Below, in pieces: positions 1-9,064 of a stretch of 64,000 nucleotides of DNA. The stretch is from assembly GCA_947447975.1 (NCBI GenBank), contig CANFLU010000010.1, positions 1-64,000 on the forward strand, in the 5' to 3' direction. Position 1 is the first letter of the stretch; every line of letters begins with the position of its first letter. Both the position numbers and the translations under genes were made by a program. Below the pieces are notes generated by a model that was not told where the DNA came from, made no database searches, and worked only from the letters and a program-made list of their open reading frames with translations. The stretch comes from Comamonadaceae bacterium. GTDB lineage: Bacteria > Pseudomonadota > Gammaproteobacteria > Burkholderiales > Burkholderiaceae_C.

Positions 1-4
1 CATC

Positions 5-1654
5 ATGGAAGAACGTAAAACCATATCGATCAAAGACCTGAATATCAAAGACCTGCTGGATACGGAGGTCAAGACGGCTGATATTTCGCGCGATCTGCCA
101 TTTCGCAAATGGCTGTACTCATGGGTGCTGGACCCTGCCATTCCTGGCAATTTCCAGGGGAGTTTTGATAAGTGGATTGGCATCTTGATTATTGCCAATC
201 TGTTCAGTCTGATATTTGAAAATGTTCCAGGCATCTACGAGCCCTATAAGCCCTGGTTTGAATTTTTTGACTTGCTCTCCATCGCCGTTTTCACGGTCGA
301 GTATCTGCTGCGCTTTTATTTGTCGGCAGAAGACGCCGCTTTCCAAGGCAAAGTTAGCTCGCGTCTGGCCTATGTCCTGAGCCCGTTTGCGATTATTGAC
401 GCCTTGGCCATCGTGCCTTTCTACTTGGTGCGCGTGTTTGGTTTGTCGATTGACTTGCATGTACTCAAAGCGCTGCGGATTTTGCGTTTGCTCAAGATCT
501 TCCGCATCGTTATTCCGGCTTACTACGAGTTTGCCGCGCTCAACCGTGGACGTACCTTTCGCCAAAAGATCCATGCGCTGATCTTCGAGAGCGCCTATGG
601 CGGACGCTTGCAAGAAATGTTCGAACTGTTTATCGCCATGTGGGTACTGGTTTCCGTCTTTGCGGTGATCTTGGAGTCGGTGCACGGCATTTCGTATCTG
701 CTCAATGTGGAATTTGTGATTCTTGATGCGGTAGCGGTGGCGGTGTTCACGATTGAATACTGCATGCGCATGTATTCGTGCGTGGAAGAGCCGGGCTATG
801 AGGGCACTGTGATGGGTCGCTGGCGCCAGGCAAAACATCCTTCCACGGTGATTGACCTGCTGGCTATCTTGCCCTTCTTTTTGGAAGTGTTTTTGCACCA
901 CTTGCTGGACTTGCGATTCCTGCGGGTCTTCCGCCTGACGCGTTTACTCAAACTTACGCGGGGCAACGACGCCACGGCGACCCTGGTCAAAGTGGTTTCG
1001 CGCGAATGGCCGGTGATCGCCGCTGCCGCTTTCATCATGATTTTGCTGGTGGTGCTCACCGCATCACTGGGCTACTTGTTTGAATACGAAGCGCAGCCGG
1101 ATAAGTTTGAAAACATCCCCACCTCGATCTACTGGGCGGTGATTACCTTGGCTTCGGTGGGTTATGGCGATATTTCGCCGGTAACCGTTCCGGGTCGGGC
1201 CATGACGATTGTGCTGGCCTTCATCGGTATCGGTATCTTCGCCATCCCTGCCGCTTTGTTGTCCTCCGCCTTTAGCGATGAACTGCAAAAAGAGCGGGAT
1301 GAGCTGAAGAACAATCTCTACAAAATCCTGAAAGACGGCGTCATTGATGAGGATGAAATTCACACCATCCGCCACGAAGCGCATCGTATGCACTTGAGCG
1401 TGGAGGAGGTTAACGCCCTCATCAAGCTGATACAGCATGAATTAGAGAAAGAGGCTGAGCTGCAAACCTTACCGATCAGTACGATCGCGCAAAGACCGGA
1501 TCTGGCGGTAGAGCATTACAAGTCACTCATCAGCGATATCCGCCGCTTAGCCCTGCTCACCGACGAGGCTGCCTTCAATGCTTCCGTGAAAGCCCGTGAC
1601 AGCTTGAGCGCAAGCGATATGGCGTTGTGGCGGCAAATTCAGGGTAAAAGCTGA
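5..1654 (+). CDS. Ion channel with two voltage-sensor domains and one K+-type pore
   Basis: The 549-residue protein looks like an inner-membrane cation channel. Seen: a first four-helix sensor at about residues 57-170, with basic residues every third position in S4 (R158, R161, K164, R167), not followed by a pore. A second sensor follows at about 205-319 (R304, R307, R310, R313, K316, R319), then S5 (336-356), a pore loop with filter SVGYGD (384-389) and S6 (397-424). This gives about ten membrane segments instead of the usual six. The filter is that of K+ channels, so potassium selectivity is inferred. A soluble tail carries a KDGVIDEDE motif (443-451) shared with the next two genes. The ATG lies four bases from the window edge, so the true start could be further upstream. 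Ninety bases separate it from the next channel gene, which is co-directional. Confidence 0.85.
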   Translation: MEERKTISIKDLNIKDLLDTEVKTADISRDLPFRKWLYSWVLDPAIPGNFQGSFDKWIGILIIANLFSLIFENVPGIYEPYKPWFEFFDLLSIAVFTVEYLLRFYLSAEDAAFQGKVSSRLAYVLSPFAIIDALAIVPFYLVRVFGLSIDLHVLKALRILRLLKIFRIVIPAYYEFAALNRGRTFRQKIHALIFESAYGGRLQEMFELFIAMWVLVSVFAVILESVHGISYLLNVEFVILDAVAVAVFTIEYCMRMYSCVEEPGYEGTVMGRWRQAKHPSTVIDLLAILPFFLEVFLHHLLDLRFLRVFRLTRLLKLTRGNDATATLVKVVSREWPVIAAAAFIMILLVVLTASLGYLFEYEAQPDKFENIPTSIYWAVITLASVGYGDISPVTVPGRAMTIVLAFIGIGIFAIPAALLSSAFSDELQKERDELKNNLYKILKDGVIDEDEIHTIRHEAHRMHLSVEEVNALIKLIQHELEKEAELQTLPISTIAQRPDLAVEHYKSLISDIRRLALLTDEAAFNASVKARDSLSASDMALWRQIQGKS

Positions 1655-1744: not shown

Positions 1745-2650
1745 ATGAATTTGTCCCAATTGCAGCATAGTGTGATGGAGGTCCTGGAAGGATCGCCCAG
1801 TTACAAGATCAGCAAGTACGTGGAATGGCTGATCACCGTGGTGGTGCTGGTCAATTGCTCGGCCGTGATTTTGGATTCGGTGCCAGAGATACACGCGGTC
1901 TACAAAGACTTCTTCCATGAGCTCGAGTTCTGGAGTGTGACCTTCTTCACCATCGAATACGTGCTGCGCGTCTGGTCGCTGGGGGCCAAGTTCGCGGGCG
2001 GCGAGGGCGGCTCCTGGAAAGGGCGCAGCGAGTACATCTTCAGTCCCTTCGGGTTGGTGGACTTTTTTGCCACTATGCCGCATTACATGCACATGTTTTT
2101 CCCGTCGCTGGACTTGCGCATTCTGCGTGTCTTGCGGCTCTTGCGGATTCTCAAGCTGTCCAAGTACAACACCGCGCTGCAGGACTTATTCCACGCGGTG
2201 TATTCCGAGCGTCGGGCTTTTGGTTCAGCCGCTTTTTTGTTGCTGATTGCTACCGTGGTGTCGGCCTCGCTCATGCACTTTGCTGAAGGGCATGAGCAGC
2301 CCGAGCAATTTGGCTCTATCCCGCACGCGATCTACTGGTCCATCGTGACCATTACCTCGGGCTACGGCAACGTCGACCCGGTCACCAAGGCGGGCGAGGT
2401 AATTGCGCTTCTGACCGGCTTTTTGGGCGTGTGTATGGCGGCCATCATGACCGGCATCGTCGCCTCGGCCTTCTCCAATCAGATCTCACGCAAAAAAGCG
2501 GCTTACCAGAGCCAGTTGCGGCTGGTCTTGGCCGATGGCGTGGTGAGCGATGCCGAACGTGAATCCCTCAAAGCCCTCCAAGTTAAATACCGATTGTCCG
2601 ATGCGCAGGTGCAGGTATTTATCGATGAAGCGCAAGGGAAGAAAAAATAA
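1745..2650 (+). CDS. Voltage-gated-type ion channel with GYGN filter
   Basis: The 301-residue protein has the six-segment architecture of the Ion_trans family. The sensor spans about residues 25-140, with S4 basic residues R125, R128, R131, R134 and K137. S5 is near 160-178, the pore loop carries ITSGYGNVDP (203-212) and S6 is at about 217-243. The filter has Thr-Ser-Gly-Tyr-Gly-Asn, whereas the K+ channel signature is Thr-Val-Gly-Tyr-Gly-Asp. The Asn after GYG recalls eukaryotic EAG/ERG channels (GFGN). The C-terminal tail holds LADGVVSDAER (262-272). The stop codon shares one base with the next gene's start (TAATG), indicating translational coupling and perhaps a mixed-subunit channel. Ion selectivity cannot be decided from sequence. 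Confidence 0.82.
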   Translation: MNLSQLQHSVMEVLEGSPSYKISKYVEWLITVVVLVNCSAVILDSVPEIHAVYKDFFHELEFWSVTFFTIEYVLRVWSLGAKFAGGEGGSWKGRSEYIFSPFGLVDFFATMPHYMHMFFPSLDLRILRVLRLLRILKLSKYNTALQDLFHAVYSERRAFGSAAFLLLIATVVSASLMHFAEGHEQPEQFGSIPHAIYWSIVTITSGYGNVDPVTKAGEVIALLTGFLGVCMAAIMTGIVASAFSNQISRKKAAYQSQLRLVLADGVVSDAERESLKALQVKYRLSDAQVQVFIDEAQGKKK

Positions 2651-3603
2651 TGCATATCGACAACCCGATCGAAGGGCTGACCGGCATACGCCGCGTCAAG
2701 CGCCGCATATTTGAAATTCTGGATGGCGCAGTAGTGGATGACGCCAACCGGGCTTGCGAAATATTTATCGCGACACTCGTGGTTGCTAATGTGCTCTCCA
2801 TTATTTTGGAGTCGCTGCATGAGGTACATGAGGCCTACCACGAGTATTTTTACGCCTTTGATGTGTTTAGCGTGATCGTGTTCTCCATCGAGTATGTGCT
2901 GCGTGTCTGGTCCTATGGCGAGAAGTACCCCAAGGCCGAGGGCAGCGCCTGGCGTGGCCGCAAAGACTATATGTTCAGCGCCTTTGGCGTGGTGGATTTC
3001 GCAAGCACTGTGCCCTTCTATCTGCAGCTGATTTTCCCAGGCGCTGATTTGCGCGTGCTGCGCATGTTCCGCTTACTTCGGATCTTCAAGCTTTCACGCT
3101 ACAACAGTGCAATGGACGATATGTTTGCTGCCATCAAGGCGGAGAAGGACTCTTTTTCTTCGGCCATGTTTTTGCTGCTGATCAGTTGCCTGCTCTTTTC
3201 TTCGCTGATTTACATCATCGAGGGGACAGACCAGCCCGATGTGTTCCCTTCCATCCCGGCGGCTATGCACTGGTTTATCCTGACCATCATCTCCGGCTGG
3301 GGCAATGTGGACCCAGTCACCTTCCTAGGCGTCGTGCTAGTGGTGGTGACGCAAATTTTGGCTATTGCATTGGCCGCTATCCTGACCGGTGTGGTCGCCA
3401 CGGCCTACACCGCGCAGGTGCAGCGGCGTGAATCCGAATACGAGCTACAGGTGCGCGAAGTGCTGGCCGATGGCGTAGTCACTGAAGAAGAACGACTCCA
3501 GCTCAAACAAATGCAAGCCAAGTTTGGCATGACGGACGAGCAGGTCGAAGCGATAGCTGAACAAGTACGACACGAGAAAGCGGAAAGTACCGTCAAGCTG
3601 TAA
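2650..3603 (+). CDS. Voltage-gated-type ion channel with GWGN filter
   Basis: The 317-residue protein is a close paralogue of the preceding one: same helix order, sensor S4 with R135, R138, R141, R144, K147 and R150, S6 near 226-252, and tail motif LADGVVTEEER (272-282). Its pore motif is IISGWGNVDP (213-222). Relative to TVGYG, the Thr is replaced by Ile, the Val by Ser and the Tyr by Trp, so a homomeric standard K+ filter is doubtful. Its ATG overlaps the previous stop by one base. A bidirectional terminator follows 15 bases after the stop, so the three channel genes probably end one transcript. An obligate subunit, a nonselective channel or a regulatory subunit are all possible. Confidence 0.82.
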   Translation: MHIDNPIEGLTGIRRVKRRIFEILDGAVVDDANRACEIFIATLVVANVLSIILESLHEVHEAYHEYFYAFDVFSVIVFSIEYVLRVWSYGEKYPKAEGSAWRGRKDYMFSAFGVVDFASTVPFYLQLIFPGADLRVLRMFRLLRIFKLSRYNSAMDDMFAAIKAEKDSFSSAMFLLLISCLLFSSLIYIIEGTDQPDVFPSIPAAMHWFILTIISGWGNVDPVTFLGVVLVVVTQILAIALAAILTGVVATAYTAQVQRRESEYELQVREVLADGVVTEEERLQLKQMQAKFGMTDEQVEAIAEQVRHEKAESTVKL

Positions 3604-3705: not shown

Positions 3706-5208
3706 CTAAGCAGCCGCCTTGCTGCGCAGCGCGCCCACAATGCCACCGACCAAGGGCCAGATCAGCATCAGCATGGCCAAGGCGAAGATGCCACCGACCA
3801 GTCCGTTAGACCAGAAGATCGACAAACTACCTTGCGAGAGCAGCATGGACTGGCGAAAACTGGCTTCGGCCATATCACCCAGCACCAGCGCAAGCACCAT
3901 AGGTGCCATCGGGTACTTGAGCTTTTTGAACAAATAACCCACTACGCCAAAGACCATCATCATCACCACGTCAAACATGGCGCTGTGCACGGTATAGGCC
4001 CCGATGGCGCATATCACCACGATGACTGGCGCGATCACCGAGAAGGGAATGCGCAAAAACGCAGCCCAATAGGGCACGGTAGTCAGCACCACCAAGAGCC
4101 CGACGATATTGCCCAGGTACATCGATGCGATCAGCCCCCAGACAAAGTCTTTGTGCTCGACAAACAGCATAGGCCCTGGCTGCAGGCCCCAAATCATCAG
4201 GCCGCCCAGGAGTACCGCCGCTGTGGGCGAGCCGGGAATACCTAGCGTGAGCATGGGCAGCAGCGCCGAAGTGCCCGCCGCATGCGCAGCCGTTTCGGGC
4301 GCCAGCACACCCTCAATCTGGCCCTTGCCAAAGGTTTCCGGCTCATTGGACATGCGCTGGGCGATGCCATAGCTCATAAACGAAGCAGGCGTCGCACCGC
4401 CGGGGGTAATACCCATCCAGCAGCCGATGGCCGTGGAGCGCAAAAAGGTCAGCCAGTAGCGGGGCAGCGTCTTCCAGGTCTCCCACACCACTTTGGGGTT
4501 GAGCTTGGCGGACTTGCCTTTGAAAGCCAGGCCCTCTTCCATGGTCAGCAAAATCTCGCCGATACCAAACAGGCCGATCACCGCGATCAAAAAGTCAAAG
4601 CCTTTGAGCAGCACCGGAAAGCCATAGGTCATGCGCAATTGACCGGTGACCGTGTCCATGCCCACCGCAGCCAGCGCAAAGCCCAGCATCATGGACACAA
4701 TGACTTTGGCCGGTGGTTCCTTGCTCATACCCACAAAGCTGCAAAAGGTGAGCAGTTGGACCGCAAAGTATTCGGCCGGCCCGAAGTTGAGCGCGAACTT
4801 GGCCAATACCGGCGCTAAAAAGGTAATCAGCGCTACCGCAAAAAACGCGCCGATGAAGGACGAGGTGAATGCCGCCGTCAGCGCCTGCGCCGCTTTGCCT
4901 TGTTGGGCCATGGGGTAGCCGTCAAAGGTGGTGGCTACCGACCAGGGTTCGCCCGGGATGTTGAACAAGATCGAGGTAATGGCCCCGCCAAACAAAGCGC
5001 CCCAGTAAATACAGGAGAGCATGATGATGGCCGAGGTCGGGTTCATCGAAAAGGTCAGCGGCAGCAAGATGGCAATGCCATTGGCACCACCCAGCCCGGG
5101 CAACACCCCGATCAACACCCCCAGGGTGATGCCGATCAGCATATAGACAATATTGGGCAGCGTCAGCGCCACCGCAAAGCCATTAAACAGATTGTTAATT
5201 TCGTCCAT
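3706..5208 (-). CDS. tctA: Tripartite tricarboxylate transporter, large permease TctA
   Basis: The 500-residue, very hydrophobic protein has the TctA hallmarks: an N-terminal GVLIGVLPGLGGANGIAIL stretch (about residues 30-48) and an internal GITPGGATPASFMSYG stretch (about 266-281), the two related glycine-rich loops thought to line the transport path. Length matches the family (about 500). The ATG overlaps the tctB stop by one base (TAATG). It is the last gene of a minus-strand operon that starts with oxalyl-CoA decarboxylase. TTT systems carry carboxylates by secondary transport with a periplasmic binding protein; oxalate or a related dicarboxylate as substrate is inferred from the operon. 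Confidence 0.93.
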   Translation of the reverse strand: MDEINNLFNGFAVALTLPNIVYMLIGITLGVLIGVLPGLGGANGIAILLPLTFSMNPTSAIIMLSCIYWGALFGGAITSILFNIPGEPWSVATTFDGYPMAQQGKAAQALTAAFTSSFIGAFFAVALITFLAPVLAKFALNFGPAEYFAVQLLTFCSFVGMSKEPPAKVIVSMMLGFALAAVGMDTVTGQLRMTYGFPVLLKGFDFLIAVIGLFGIGEILLTMEEGLAFKGKSAKLNPKVVWETWKTLPRYWLTFLRSTAIGCWMGITPGGATPASFMSYGIAQRMSNEPETFGKGQIEGVLAPETAAHAAGTSALLPMLTLGIPGSPTAAVLLGGLMIWGLQPGPMLFVEHKDFVWGLIASMYLGNIVGLLVVLTTVPYWAAFLRIPFSVIAPVIVVICAIGAYTVHSAMFDVVMMMVFGVVGYLFKKLKYPMAPMVLALVLGDMAEASFRQSMLLSQGSLSIFWSNGLVGGIFALAMLMLIWPLVGGIVGALRSKAAA

Positions 5209-5732
5209 TAGAACCCCAGCATGTTTTCAATCGGGCCCTTGGGTAGCGGCACCAAAAACCATTTCTCGAACACCAGAAAAAATACCAGCGGCACGCCAAT
5301 GGAAACGCCCAGGCTAGAAGGCCAGGCAAACTTGCCGTGGTGGCGCATGAAGTAGCCGATCAAAATGGCAGACGGGAGGTAAATGCCAAGAAACACCATG
5401 GCCACCACATAGATGACCATCGGCACCAGCATTTGAAAAACCGGCACCAGCTCCTCCCGCGTCGCAAATACCGCTTGCGACTTGCCCCACTTCAACAGCG
5501 TCGTCACTACCACCGTAGCACTGGCCGCTAAAAGGATCAGACCGATATAAAAAGGGAAGTAGCCCGCTTGCGGACCCTCGTCGCCCCAGCCAATACCGAC
5601 CCGCATGCTGTCGGTAATGACCAGGCCGGCCAGGCCCATGATGATCAGGCCGACAACCAGTTCCGGGCCGCGCGTGAGCGTGGCCCCGGCGCTGGCTCCT
5701 TCCTGCTCTGGGGAATCGTGTGGAGTTGTCAT
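5208..5732 (-). CDS. tctB: Tripartite tricarboxylate transporter, small permease TctB
   Basis: The 174-residue protein has a short hydrophilic N-terminus, then four predicted membrane helices (about residues 27-46, 61-82, 108-128 and 137-158), the layout of the TctB small membrane subunit. It lies between the binding-protein and TctA genes in canonical tctCBA order, 25 bases after tctC and overlapping tctA by one base. TctB sequences diverge widely, so the assignment rests on topology and context as much as on motifs. Confidence 0.88.
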   Translation of the reverse strand: MTTPHDSPEQEGASAGATLTRGPELVVGLIIMGLAGLVITDSMRVGIGWGDEGPQAGYFPFYIGLILLAASATVVVTTLLKWGKSQAVFATREELVPVFQMLVPMVIYVVAMVFLGIYLPSAILIGYFMRHHGKFAWPSSLGVSIGVPLVFFLVFEKWFLVPLPKGPIENMLGF

Positions 5733-5757
5733 GGCGTAATACCTGTTTGTAGAGGTC

Positions 5758-6762
5758 TTAGTTGGCGAGGAAACCGGCTTCGCGCATCAACTCGCGATGC
5801 TGCTGCTCGGCTTTACCCAGCCATTCAAAATAATCCTTGCCTGTCAATGTCGTTTGCTTGAACGCGCCTTCTTCCATAAAGGCTTTCCACTCGGGCAGCG
5901 CGCTGACTTTCTTAAACAAGTCCAGGTAAAACTTCACTTGGTCGTCCGACACGCCGGGCGGCATAAAGATGCCACGCAACATCAGGTACTCCACCGGCAA
6001 ACCAGCCGAAGTACAGGTGGGAATATCGTTCCACGACTGCGTGGCGGTGAGCTTGGTTTTGTAAGGGAGTTTGTCTTTATCAAATACACACAAGGGACGC
6101 AGCGCTCCCGAGCGCCAATGCGTTTCGGCCTCGATAGGGTTGTTTACCGTGGAGTCAATATGCTTGCCGACTAATTGAACTGCCACATCGCCACCCCCCT
6201 TGAGCGGGATGTAAATCATTTTCTTACCCGTGGATTTTTCCATCAGCACGGTGATGATCTGGTCTTCCTGCTTAGAGCCGGTGCCGCCCATTTTGAACGT
6301 TTTGTCGGGTTGGGCCTTGATTGCGGCCATGTAGTCAGCCGCGGTTTTGTAAGGCGTATCCGAGTGCACCCACAAAATGAATTGGTCCAACGCCAGCATT
6401 TGGACCGGCGTCATATCGCGCCAGTTGAACGGTACGCCTGTCGCCAGTGGTGTGGTGAACAGGTTGGACAAGGTGATGATGATTTTGTGTCCATTGCCCT
6501 TGTCACCCTTGACGTCCAGAAAGCCCTCGGCGCCTGCGCCACCAGACTTATTGACCACGATGATGGGCTGCGGGCTCAGCTTGTTTTTAGCGACCACGCC
6601 TTGCAGAAAGCGCGCCATTTGGTCAGCGCCACCACCAGTCCCAGCGGGTACTACAAACTCGATCGGTTTGGTCGGCTCCCAAGCTTGGGCCGGTGCCAAA
6701 AAGCTGGCCATGGCCAGCACCACTGCGGTCTGCGTCGCGCGAATAAGGTTTTTCAGTTTCAT
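5758..6762 (-). CDS. Periplasmic TctC/Bug-family binding protein of the oxalate operon
   Basis: The start is placed at the ATG preceded by GAGGAGA, giving 334 residues. The N-terminus MKLKNLIRATQT plus a hydrophobic stretch ending in APAQA is a Sec signal peptide cleaved before Trp. The mature protein begins with the Bug-family strand EFVVPAGTGGGADQMARFLQ and has the typical ENKSGGAGAEG-like loop (VVNKSGGAGAEGF). Such proteins capture carboxylates and deliver them to TctAB. Being encoded between the formyltransferase and tctBA, it probably binds oxalate or a structurally related acid. A longer reading frame upstream overlaps the neighbouring gene and lacks a signal peptide at its start, so it was not chosen. 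Confidence 0.92.
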   Translation of the reverse strand: MKLKNLIRATQTAVVLAMASFLAPAQAWEPTKPIEFVVPAGTGGGADQMARFLQGVVAKNKLSPQPIIVVNKSGGAGAEGFLDVKGDKGNGHKIIITLSNLFTTPLATGVPFNWRDMTPVQMLALDQFILWVHSDTPYKTAADYMAAIKAQPDKTFKMGGTGSKQEDQIITVLMEKSTGKKMIYIPLKGGGDVAVQLVGKHIDSTVNNPIEAETHWRSGALRPLCVFDKDKLPYKTKLTATQSWNDIPTCTSAGLPVEYLMLRGIFMPPGVSDDQVKFYLDLFKKVSALPEWKAFMEEGAFKQTTLTGKDYFEWLGKAEQQHRELMREAGFLAN

Positions 6763-6841
6763 GGTGTCTCCTCGTGTAATAAAAAAAATTTCCGTTTGAC
6801 CGGGGCCCTGCGCGCCCCGCCCCCGCAGTGCCGATAAGGCG

Positions 6842-7771
6842 TCAGCCCAGCCGACTTCCGGCGACGAGGCCGTTCGCGCGTGCATAGTCACCCGCACCCA
6901 TTTTTTTACCATCGTCGGCGCGCAATTTCAGCACCTCGATCTGCCCGCTCTGCGTGCTGACAAATATCGACCCCTCGGTAACCAAGGTAATTTCACCGGG
7001 TTTACCCTTGCTATCGCCATAGCGCCCGATGCGGTGTTTGCGGCAGTCAAAGATAAAAACCTTTTTTCCGTCGGCCATCGTCCAGGCGCCTGGCGCTGGG
7101 TTGCAGGCACGTACCAAGTCATAGACCACGTCGATATGGTTGTGCCAGTGGATTTGCGACTCAGCGGCTAAAAACCAGCCCTCGTAGCTCGCCTGCGATT
7201 CATCTTGCGCTATTTCCTGGTGCGTGCCGGCCACCACGGCGTCTGCAGCTTCCAACAAGGCGCTAACGCCCAGCGGAAATAGCTTGTTGAAATACAGCTC
7301 GCCCAATGTTTCGTCCGGGCCGATGTCGCAGCGCTTTTGCAAAATCACCAGGCCCTCGTCCAAGCCGTCGCTGGGCCGAAAGATGGTAAGGCCCGTTTCT
7401 TTCTCGCCGCGCGACATGGCCCAACTAATGGCCGATGGACCGCGGTATTTGGGCAGCAGCGAAGGGTGGTACTGAATGGTGCCGTGCTTGGGGACCTTCA
7501 GCAGCGATTGCGGCGCGAACTGCACCACATAGGCCATCACCCCCAGGTCAGGCGCCAGCGCTTGCATAGCCTGGTGCGCGTCATCGCCTGTTAACTTGTC
7601 GAGCTGAAATACCTGTAAACCGCGCGCTTGCGCTTCCACGCGCAAGGCGTCGGGCTTGGTACCGGGCTTTTCCGGGCGGCAAAACACGCCCACCACCTCA
7701 TCGCCCCGCGCTAAAAAAGCTTCTAGAGCGGCTTTACCGAAATCTTGTTGACCGATTAGCACGATACGCAT
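6842..7771 (-). CDS. 10-formyl-THF hydrolase/formyltransferase-like protein
   Basis: The 309-residue protein has an N-terminal formyltransferase Rossmann domain (MRIVLIGQQDFG) and an FMT-type C-terminal domain. The catalytic segment reads IQYHPSLLPKYRG (99-111): His102 is kept and DGLDEG supplies the Asp (138), but the Asn of methionyl-tRNA formyltransferase (N-x-H) is Gln100. This arrangement, and the later YEGW and PGAWT motifs, match the hydrolase domain of 10-formyltetrahydrofolate dehydrogenase (ALDH1L1) better than Fmt. Position directly after oxc and frc suggests it handles the formyl group, either formyl-CoA/formyl-THF exchange or release of formate; that is inference. It is not a housekeeping fmt, which normally pairs with def. 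Confidence 0.85.
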   Translation of the reverse strand: MRIVLIGQQDFGKAALEAFLARGDEVVGVFCRPEKPGTKPDALRVEAQARGLQVFQLDKLTGDDAHQAMQALAPDLGVMAYVVQFAPQSLLKVPKHGTIQYHPSLLPKYRGPSAISWAMSRGEKETGLTIFRPSDGLDEGLVILQKRCDIGPDETLGELYFNKLFPLGVSALLEAADAVVAGTHQEIAQDESQASYEGWFLAAESQIHWHNHIDVVYDLVRACNPAPGAWTMADGKKVFIFDCRKHRIGRYGDSKGKPGEITLVTEGSIFVSTQSGQIEVLKLRADDGKKMGAGDYARANGLVAGSRLG

Positions 7772-7816
7772 GACTTCTTACCTCGTAGGTGGCGGCGCTG
7801 GGCCGCGTGGGGGGAC

Positions 7817-9064
7817 TTAAATGACCTTGGCTTCGCGCAGCGCGCCAATGTCGGCGCTGGAGTAGCCCAATTGCACCAGTACCTCGTCGGTGTGCTCGCC
7901 AAGCAGTGGTGAGCGCGTGACTTCGGTCATGCTGTCGGACATCTTGATCGGGTTGCCCACCGTCAGGTACTTGCCGCGCTCGGGGTGGTCCACTTCCACC
8001 ACCGTGCCAGTGGCCCGCAGCGAAGGCTCTTCGGCGATTTCCTTCATCGACAAAATCGGCCCGCAAGGAATGTCAAACTGGTTAAGGATGTCCATGGCTT
8101 CGAACTTGGTTTTGGTCATGGTCCACTCTTCAATGCGCGCAAAAATCTTCTTCAGATGCGGCAGGCGTTTGGGCGGTGTCGCGTAGTCCGGGTGGGTAAT
8201 CCAATCTTCTTGGCCGATCACTTTGCACACCGCAGGCCACACGGCCGCTTGGGTAATGAAGTAGATATAGGCGTTGGGGTCGGTTTCCCAGCCTTTGCAC
8301 TTCAGGATAGAGCCAGGTTGCCCGCCGCCCGAGGCATTGCCAGCGCGGGGCACGGCGTCGCCGAAAGGCGTATCCGGGTATTGCGGGTACTCGTTCATGG
8401 TGCCGGTACGGTCCAGGCGCTGCTGGTCGCGCAGCTTGACGCGGCACAGGTTGAGCACCGCGTCTTGCATAGGCGCCAGCACTTTTTGGCCGCGTCCGCT
8501 GCTGTTGCGTTGGTACAAGGCCGCCACGATGCCCAGCGCCAAATGCAAGCCGGTGCCCGAGTCGCCAATTTGCGCGCCGGTCACCAGGGGCGGGCCGTCG
8601 TCAAAACCGGTGGTCGATGCCGCGCCGCCAGCGCACTGCGCCACGTTTTCATAGACCTTGCAGTCCTCGTACTTGCCCGGGCCAAAGCCTTTGACCGAGG
8701 CCACAATCATGCGCGGGTTCAGCTCCTGGATGCGTTCCCACGTAAAGCCCATGCGGTCTAGGGCGCCGGGTGCAAAATTTTCTACCAGCACATCGCAGGT
8801 CTTGATCAAGCGGTCCAGCACCTCTTTGCCCTTGGGGTCCTTGGTGTTGATGGTGATTGAGCGCTTGTTGTGGTTGAGCATGGTGAAGTACAGGCTGTCC
8901 ACGCCGGGAATATCGCGCAGTTGTCCGCGTGTGGCGTCGCCTTCACCGGCTTTTTCTACCTTGATCACGTCGGCGCCAAACCAGGCCAGCAGCTGGGTGC
9001 AGGTCGGGCCCGATTGCACATGGGTGAAGTCGAGAATACGTACGCCGTCTAATGCTTTGCTCAT
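7817..9064 (-). CDS. frc: Formyl-CoA:oxalate CoA-transferase
   Basis: The 415-residue class III CoA-transferase moves CoA from formyl-CoA to oxalate in the cytoplasm. Seen: opening [16 protein letters not shown] typical of Frc, the catalytic Asp168 within [10 protein letters not shown] (Asp169 in Oxalobacter formigenes Frc) and the glycine loop GGGQPG (246-251) that closes over the active site. Length is close to the 428 residues of the Oxalobacter enzyme. It lies 29 bases downstream of oxc on the same strand. The GGGQ loop and the operon partner separate it from the many CaiB-like paralogues, so the specific name is well supported. Confidence 0.94.

Follow-up and report, generated by a model that had tools for sequence, protein, structure and literature searches.

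Organization of the locus

The window, a 64,000-nucleotide stretch of a Comamonadaceae genome, begins at the very start of its contig (G000:C10:1) and opens with a gene, hereafter T, encoding a putative K+ channel with two voltage sensors in tandem, which is followed by two further channel genes, G2 and G3 (Table 1). The gene upstream of T, hereafter U, therefore lies outside the window and was studied in related loci and on another contig of the same assembly.

Table 1. Position of T, G2, G3 and their features in the window (residue numbers are those of the T protein)
Feature	Position	Strand	Basis
T, putative tandem-sensor K+ channel gene	5..1654	+	Open ORF, 549 aa, ATG at 5; Pfam; alignment
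First voltage sensor, S1-S4, residues 51-172	155..520	+	Alignment of 50 distinct tandem proteins; model helices 51-72, 82-106, 127-143, 151-179
First S4, with K155, R158, R161, K164, R167	452..517	+	Sequence; alignment
Connector between the sensors, without pore loop	521..613	+	R167-S217 spacing
Second voltage sensor, residues 204-320, with R304-R319	614..964	+	Pfam; sequence; alignment
S4-S5 linker, S5, pore loop and S6, residues 321-430	965..1294	+	Ion_trans_2 at 345-423
Selectivity filter SVGYGD, residues 384-389	1154..1171	+	Alignment; motif count
Helical tail, presumably cytosolic, weakly TerB-like	1295..1651	+	TerB, 14.6 bits against a Pfam cut-off of 24.4; model helices
G2, single-sensor Kv-type gene, 301 aa, filter one residue short	1745..2650	+	ORF; Pfam; alignment
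Altered filter TSGYGN of G2	2354..2371	+	Sequence read; spacing
G3, single-sensor Kv-type gene, 317 aa, filter SGWGN one residue short	2650..3603	+	ORF; Pfam; spacing

Pfam recognizes two Ion_trans domains in T (148.3 bits against a curated cut-off of 25) and a single Ion_trans_2 pore, and the only G[YFLW]G motif in the protein is that of the filter, at residue 386. The second S4 reads R304, R307, R310, R313, K316 and R319. When the whole of T is compared with solved structures, the best matches are KCNQ4 and Kv2.1, which cover residues 205 or 234 to 431, and the first sensor is covered by none of the 60 matches shown of 255, the best stretches starting at residue 184 at the earliest. Searched by themselves, the first 196 residues match Kv-type (KCNQ, Kv4 and others) and Nav-type sensors, with Hv1 absent among the 60 matches shown of 72. 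A model of T from a 21-row alignment has a mean pLDDT of 67.3, with values of mostly 70-85 in the first sensor and below 50 for the greater part of the pore, and its comparison with the PDB returns Kv-type channels in the 50 matches listed of 361, all with low TM-scores. Judged by its domain, filter and S4 sequences, T is a channel of the Kv type that departs from this type by its two sensors per pore, and it very probably forms a K+ pore.

Two conserved sensors for one pore

The tandem build is found in 50 distinct proteins from the window's order (window's own included, duplicates removed), a set that leaves aside the Gemmobacter protein described below and partial T genes at contig ends (L002/L005, L020 and L118). 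An earlier, sequence-only reading of the window had described two complete sensors and one K+-type pore, and this holds for all 50 proteins; the ORF it delimited (5-1654) and its residue numbers (R158, R161, K164, R167 and R304 to R319) are borne out by the sequence, and the eight sensors per tetramer that it counted follow from two per chain, the tetramer itself being assumed from the Kv family.

In the first sensor, R158, R161, K164, R167, D89, F96, E99, R103 and D132 are unchanged in the entire set. Position 155 of its S4 is an arginine in 42 proteins and a lysine in eight (K155 in the window), while position 152 is an arginine in 42 and a histidine in eight, including H152 of the window, and the S4 charges are present at all six positions in 42/50 proteins and at five in the remaining eight. 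The second sensor is just as constrained, with R304, R307, R310, R313 and K316 kept throughout and R319 replaced by a lysine in a single protein. F248, E251 and D284 are invariant and D241 is found in 49/50; we take these four positions to be the S2/S3 counter-charges and the charge-transfer phenylalanine. All 50 proteins have a K+-type filter (ASVGYGD in the window), in which the valine is kept in 49 and is an isoleucine in one.

R167 in the first S4 and S217 in the second S1 lie exactly 50 residues apart in all 50 proteins, a distance too short for an S5-P-S6 unit between the sensors, and a second G[YFLW]G motif occurs in only one of them (L121), at residue 46, that is before the first sensor. 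A hidden first pore is thereby rejected. The dN/dS ratio of the first sensor ranges from 0.013 to 0.036 in five comparisons (the window against four relatives and against contig C54), similar to the 0.024 to 0.037 obtained in four comparisons for the second sensor, indicating that the first sensor is maintained. Decay of the first sensor is thus ruled out by these low ratios and by the charges kept in 50/50 proteins.

In a tree of 63 sensor segments, the 14 sensor-1 rows all form one clade (support 100/99) apart from the sensor-2 rows, and the most divergent tandem protein, L115, falls inside this clade. Although the few columns limit what the deeper forks can say, the branches of L115 are long and Gemmobacter is absent from the tree, this topology suggests that the tandem build probably arose once in the window's order.

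A side observation concerns the window's own assembly, two contigs of which overlap within T (window positions 1-691 and G000:C54:1-691, the latter being L005). The two copies are identical at positions 1-93 and 563-691 and differ at 68 sites within 94-562, a stretch that matches the part coding for the first sensor nearly exactly, and only about five of the changes are nonsynonymous. This looks like strain variation with exchange of the sensor-1 stretch alone, or else like a second copy of the gene.

Occurrence of tandem channels and versions without the first sensor

A search for related loci returned 19, of which 18 come from Comamonadaceae, Comamonas, Rhodoferax, Burkholderiaceae or a beta proteobacterium. 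Full-length tandem channels were found in 12 of 61 near genomes, all 12 belonging to the window's genus (g1), in 24/151 genomes of genus g41, in 3/26 genomes of family f18 and in four of 399 genomes sampled from the order (G000, G251, G379 and G405). At E-values up to 1e-45, samples of the class (369 genomes) and phylum (398 genomes) contained no full tandem beyond the window's own genome and G379, samples which can miss remote tandems since the Gemmobacter case surfaced only in a plasmid search. One genome, G031, holds three tandem channel genes (on C8, C161 and C204). In Burkholderiaceae AM_0233 (L022, region 4213-8989), the tandem channel is adjoined by genes resembling the K+ uptake genes trkH and trkA. 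A candidate from Dehalococcoidia (L024) was rejected because it is a single-sensor channel, with a tail that we take to be of the cyclic-nucleotide type.

The remote case is a gene on plasmid NZ_CP028919.1 of the alphaproteobacterium Gemmobacter aquarius (L136, 2219-3694; WP_159082572.1), annotated merely as 'ion transporter', which has two sensors and one K+ pore. It adjoins an ORF resembling a transposase, and on reading its sequence some of the charges of the first S4 are lost.

Natural versions without the first sensor also exist. Six distinct proteins, of which g41 contributes five and f18 one, share with the tandem channels everything from the second sensor through the pore to the tail; two more such matches (G1209 and G1223) stand outside this set of six. 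The six start close to where the first S4 ends, within a stretch matching PAY..F....GRTFRQK, and their sensors group with the second sensor of the tandems in the 63-row tree. Since the end of the first S4 is retained, these proteins appear to have lost the first sensor. These versions, the altered filters of G2 and G3, and gene U outside the window all go beyond what the earlier reading had described.

An upstream gene linked to the tandem channel

At most loci, U encodes a protein of about 175-245 residues (as many as 290 where the start is doubtful), with one hydrophobic segment near the N-terminus as read from its sequence. C121, C149 and C198 are invariant in 25 aligned sequences, a further cysteine being less regularly placed, and the cysteine-containing domain is probably periplasmic. 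None of the curated families came near its cut-off, whether in Pfam (four U proteins) or in NCBIfam (three), and the model of U is unusable (mean pLDDT 48.2).

Of the distinct tandem loci, 49 have 300 bp or more of upstream sequence, and in 47 of these U lies directly upstream of T, the two exceptions being L022 and L115. The commonest gaps between the genes are minus 4 bp (23/47) and 8 bp (17/47); the 47 include a fragment cut by a contig end (L096) and a gene 145 bp away from T (L114). U is also present at each of the partial T genes at contig ends (L002/L005, L020 and L118), and in the window's own assembly it is found on contig C54, where a T start follows it after 8 bp. By contrast, it accompanies none of 42 relatives lacking the tandem build (0/6 sensor-1-less versions and 0/36 single-sensor channels). 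That count excludes L049, a profile match outside the class limits, and the weaker channels L024, L038, L040, L042 and L043, and there is no U at any of these six loci either. A broader profile detected nothing in L022 (best E 0.073), L115 (0.047) or the Gemmobacter stretch (1.6), and no U in tandem-less loci except for contig C54, which bears the T start.

The same pattern is seen across genomes, with U in four of the 399 genomes sampled from the order, precisely those that carry T, and in 24/151 genomes of g41 (including a marginal match in G1208, E 8.5e-4), where T occurs in 24 and both genes in 23; the one g41 genome with T and no U is G1158, that is L115. As the alignment behind the U profile (A3) was partly built from these genomes, presence in such counts is not blind, whereas absence is. 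U is thus linked near-obligately to the tandem channel, a linkage which is new here.

Such a linkage makes it likely that U is a physical partner of T. That U sits on the first sensor itself is more doubtful. Over 45 pairs, the divergence of U correlates with that of every part of T (plain r of 0.85 for sensor 1, 0.91 for sensor 2, 0.84 for the pore and 0.92 for the tail), and partial correlations are 0.03 for sensor 1 and -0.04 for the pore as opposed to 0.48 (sensor 2) and 0.47 (tail). The correlation with sensor 1 reaches 0.95 in g41 (22 U-T pairs), but is only 0.68 in g1 (20 pairs), where it is the lowest of the four parts. That U tracks sensor 1 no better than it tracks other parts argues against a contact specific to this sensor, although exchange of sensor-1 DNA between strains could blur the comparison.

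Downstream channels with shortened filters

All four genes stand in the order U-T-G2-G3 in 12 distinct g1 loci. The distance from the pore-helix tryptophan to the first glycine of the filter is eight residues in all 31 aligned downstream proteins (17 G2 and 14 G3) and nine in all 50 T proteins, and the filter ends in GN in the former and in GD in T. L123, in family f18, has a G2-like gene whose spacing is equally short. This arrangement is not universal: some g1 loci consist of U and T with neither G2 nor G3 in about 1.5 kb downstream (L032, L034 and L035), and no G2/G3-like gene was seen in the g41 tandem loci examined. In f18, a single-sensor gene was found only at L044/L056, which represent one place, where it precedes U-T and has an ordinary filter.

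Membership of a defence system was considered and rejected, PADLOC giving no match for T or U (one U protein) and only weak PDC-S48 matches in the tails of G2 (E 0.0005) and G3 (E 0.00025). In a comparison of L018 (3000-10500) with L007, flanking genes are mostly 90-97% identical at the DNA level, while U-T is at about 55-75% and G2-G3 at about 75-90%, which suggests that the U-T-G2-G3 operon has been exchanged at a constant site or that it evolves faster.

A putative role for the additional sensor

Starting from the anatomy of T, its conservation, the purifying selection on its first sensor and the near-obligate linkage to U, we put at even chances a scheme in which T is a Kv-type channel whose tetramer carries eight sensors and U is its dedicated partner subunit, the first sensor being coupled to gating. 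Four T subunits, a number taken from the Kv family, would form one K+ pore, which the second sensor would gate in the usual way via the S4-S5 linker. The first sensor would also move with voltage and pass its state, through the connector of fixed length, to the second sensor's pre-S1 helix, thereby shifting or steepening gating. U would be a subunit of the complex, perhaps touching a part unique to tandem channels. That the first sensor is both voltage-responsive and coupled is a view we favour slightly, bearing in mind that conserved charges alone are no proof of movement. Against the scheme stand the two tandem channels (L022 and L115) and the Gemmobacter protein that have no recognizable U nearby, the charges lost from the Gemmobacter first S4, the divergence of U, which shows no particular tie to sensor 1, and a model of T of only moderate quality; moreover, the sensor-1-less versions without U may go back to no more than one or two events in evolution. 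In the cell, T would probably serve the control of K+ or of the membrane potential.

Additional domains of Kv channels frequently have a role in assembly, and the first sensor could similarly be a structural dock that holds U or lipids, or that aids assembly, without sensing voltage. U does accompany channels that have this sensor and none of the 42 relatives without one. However, a mere dock would have no need of four charges in S4, of F96 or of the acids in S2 and S3, all of which are kept in 50/50 proteins, and the divergence of U is not specific to sensor 1, which leaves this explanation rather unlikely. It is very improbable that T is the remnant of a two-domain channel similar to the two-pore channels (TPC) that has lost its first pore, with the first sensor as a passive leftover. 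Two homologous sensors in tandem might indeed have originated by duplication followed by loss of a pore, but there is no trace of S5-P-S6 between them, their spacing is identical in 50/50 proteins and the first is under purifying selection.

The earlier reading had also raised the idea that the first sensor might be a conduction pathway in its own right, for protons or cations, beside the K+ pore (as in Hv1 or an omega pore). Isolated sensor domains do conduct in eukaryotes, as Hv1 does, and the histidine that eight of the 50 proteins, the window's included, have at position 152 replaces the arginine of most relatives. According to a 2023 review, the hallmarks of Hv1 are RxWRxxR in S4 and an acid in the S1 core acting as selectivity filter, Hv1 is not known in prokaryotes and every voltage-sensing domain known from prokaryotes is paired with a pore (PMC10377628). 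In all 50 tandem proteins, S4 has no tryptophan and the S1 core (residues 58-71) has no aspartate or glutamate, and the S4 ladder is complete or lacks a single charge; the structural matches shown for the first sensor of T are sensors of the Kv and Nav types, and we regard such a pathway as very improbable. The same reading knew of no characterized family with this build, and a search of the open-licence literature for tandem or additional sensors did not contradict it, bringing up nothing apparently relevant.

T might, lastly, work only within a heteromer with U, G2 and G3, in which the last two would poison or retune the pore. The recurrence of the U-T-G2-G3 order in 12 distinct loci of the genus, the homology of T, G2 and G3 and the filter shortened by one residue in all 31 aligned G2 and G3 proteins all point in this direction. 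Nevertheless, the occurrence of U-T without G2 and G3 at L032, L034 and L035, and of g41 tandem loci that have neither gene, indicates that T is not always in need of them, and such a strict dependence is unlikely. It is also quite unlikely, by a slightly wider measure, that the four proteins make up one voltage-gated heteromer, a K+ channel with surplus sensors, a single-helix auxiliary subunit and two short-filter subunits tuning or blocking conduction. If this were nonetheless true, the cell could combine voltage with a periplasmic signal, and U would be, to our knowledge, the first dedicated single-helix auxiliary subunit of a prokaryotic voltage-gated channel.

To return to the scheme in which the first sensor is coupled to gating, its interest lies in the fact that studies of the coupling between voltage sensor and pore usually rely on sensors that have been cut or transplanted, while T is a natural channel that has a spare, conserved sensor with no pore directly behind it, and that has natural relatives without that sensor. 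A comparison of tandem and sensor-1-less channels, in the presence and absence of U, could show whether gating of a pore by a sensor can be indirect. It would in itself be unexpected for a voltage-gated channel of bacteria to have a dedicated auxiliary protein, and the short-filter subunits G2 and G3 could show how much deletion the K+ filter withstands.

Comparison with known systems

T shares with channels of the Kv/KCNQ type (KCNQ4, Kv2.1 and Kv4.2) its second sensor, its S5-pore-S6 unit and its K+ filter, the best match covering residues 205-431, but differs from them in that a second complete sensor precedes this unit, so that there is more than one sensor per pore. What the first sensor has in common with Hv1 is the absence of a pore of its own directly behind it, from which it is set apart by the lack of the S4 tryptophan and of the S1 core acid and by its place within the chain of a K+ channel. 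TPC and other tandem-domain channels carry two homologous sensors in one chain, as T does, whereas T has one pore domain only, with a K+-type filter. A counterpart in build is the Gemmobacter protein WP_159082572.1, with two sensors, one K+ pore and 40% identity over 346 aligned positions, although its tail is different and its S4 charge ladders read as weaker. As for U, its single hydrophobic segment and its tie to a Kv-type channel recall, by analogy, KCNE and DPP6, which are auxiliary subunits of Kv channels, but unlike these it matches no curated family in Pfam or NCBIfam, is bacterial and is encoded directly upstream of the channel that it accompanies.
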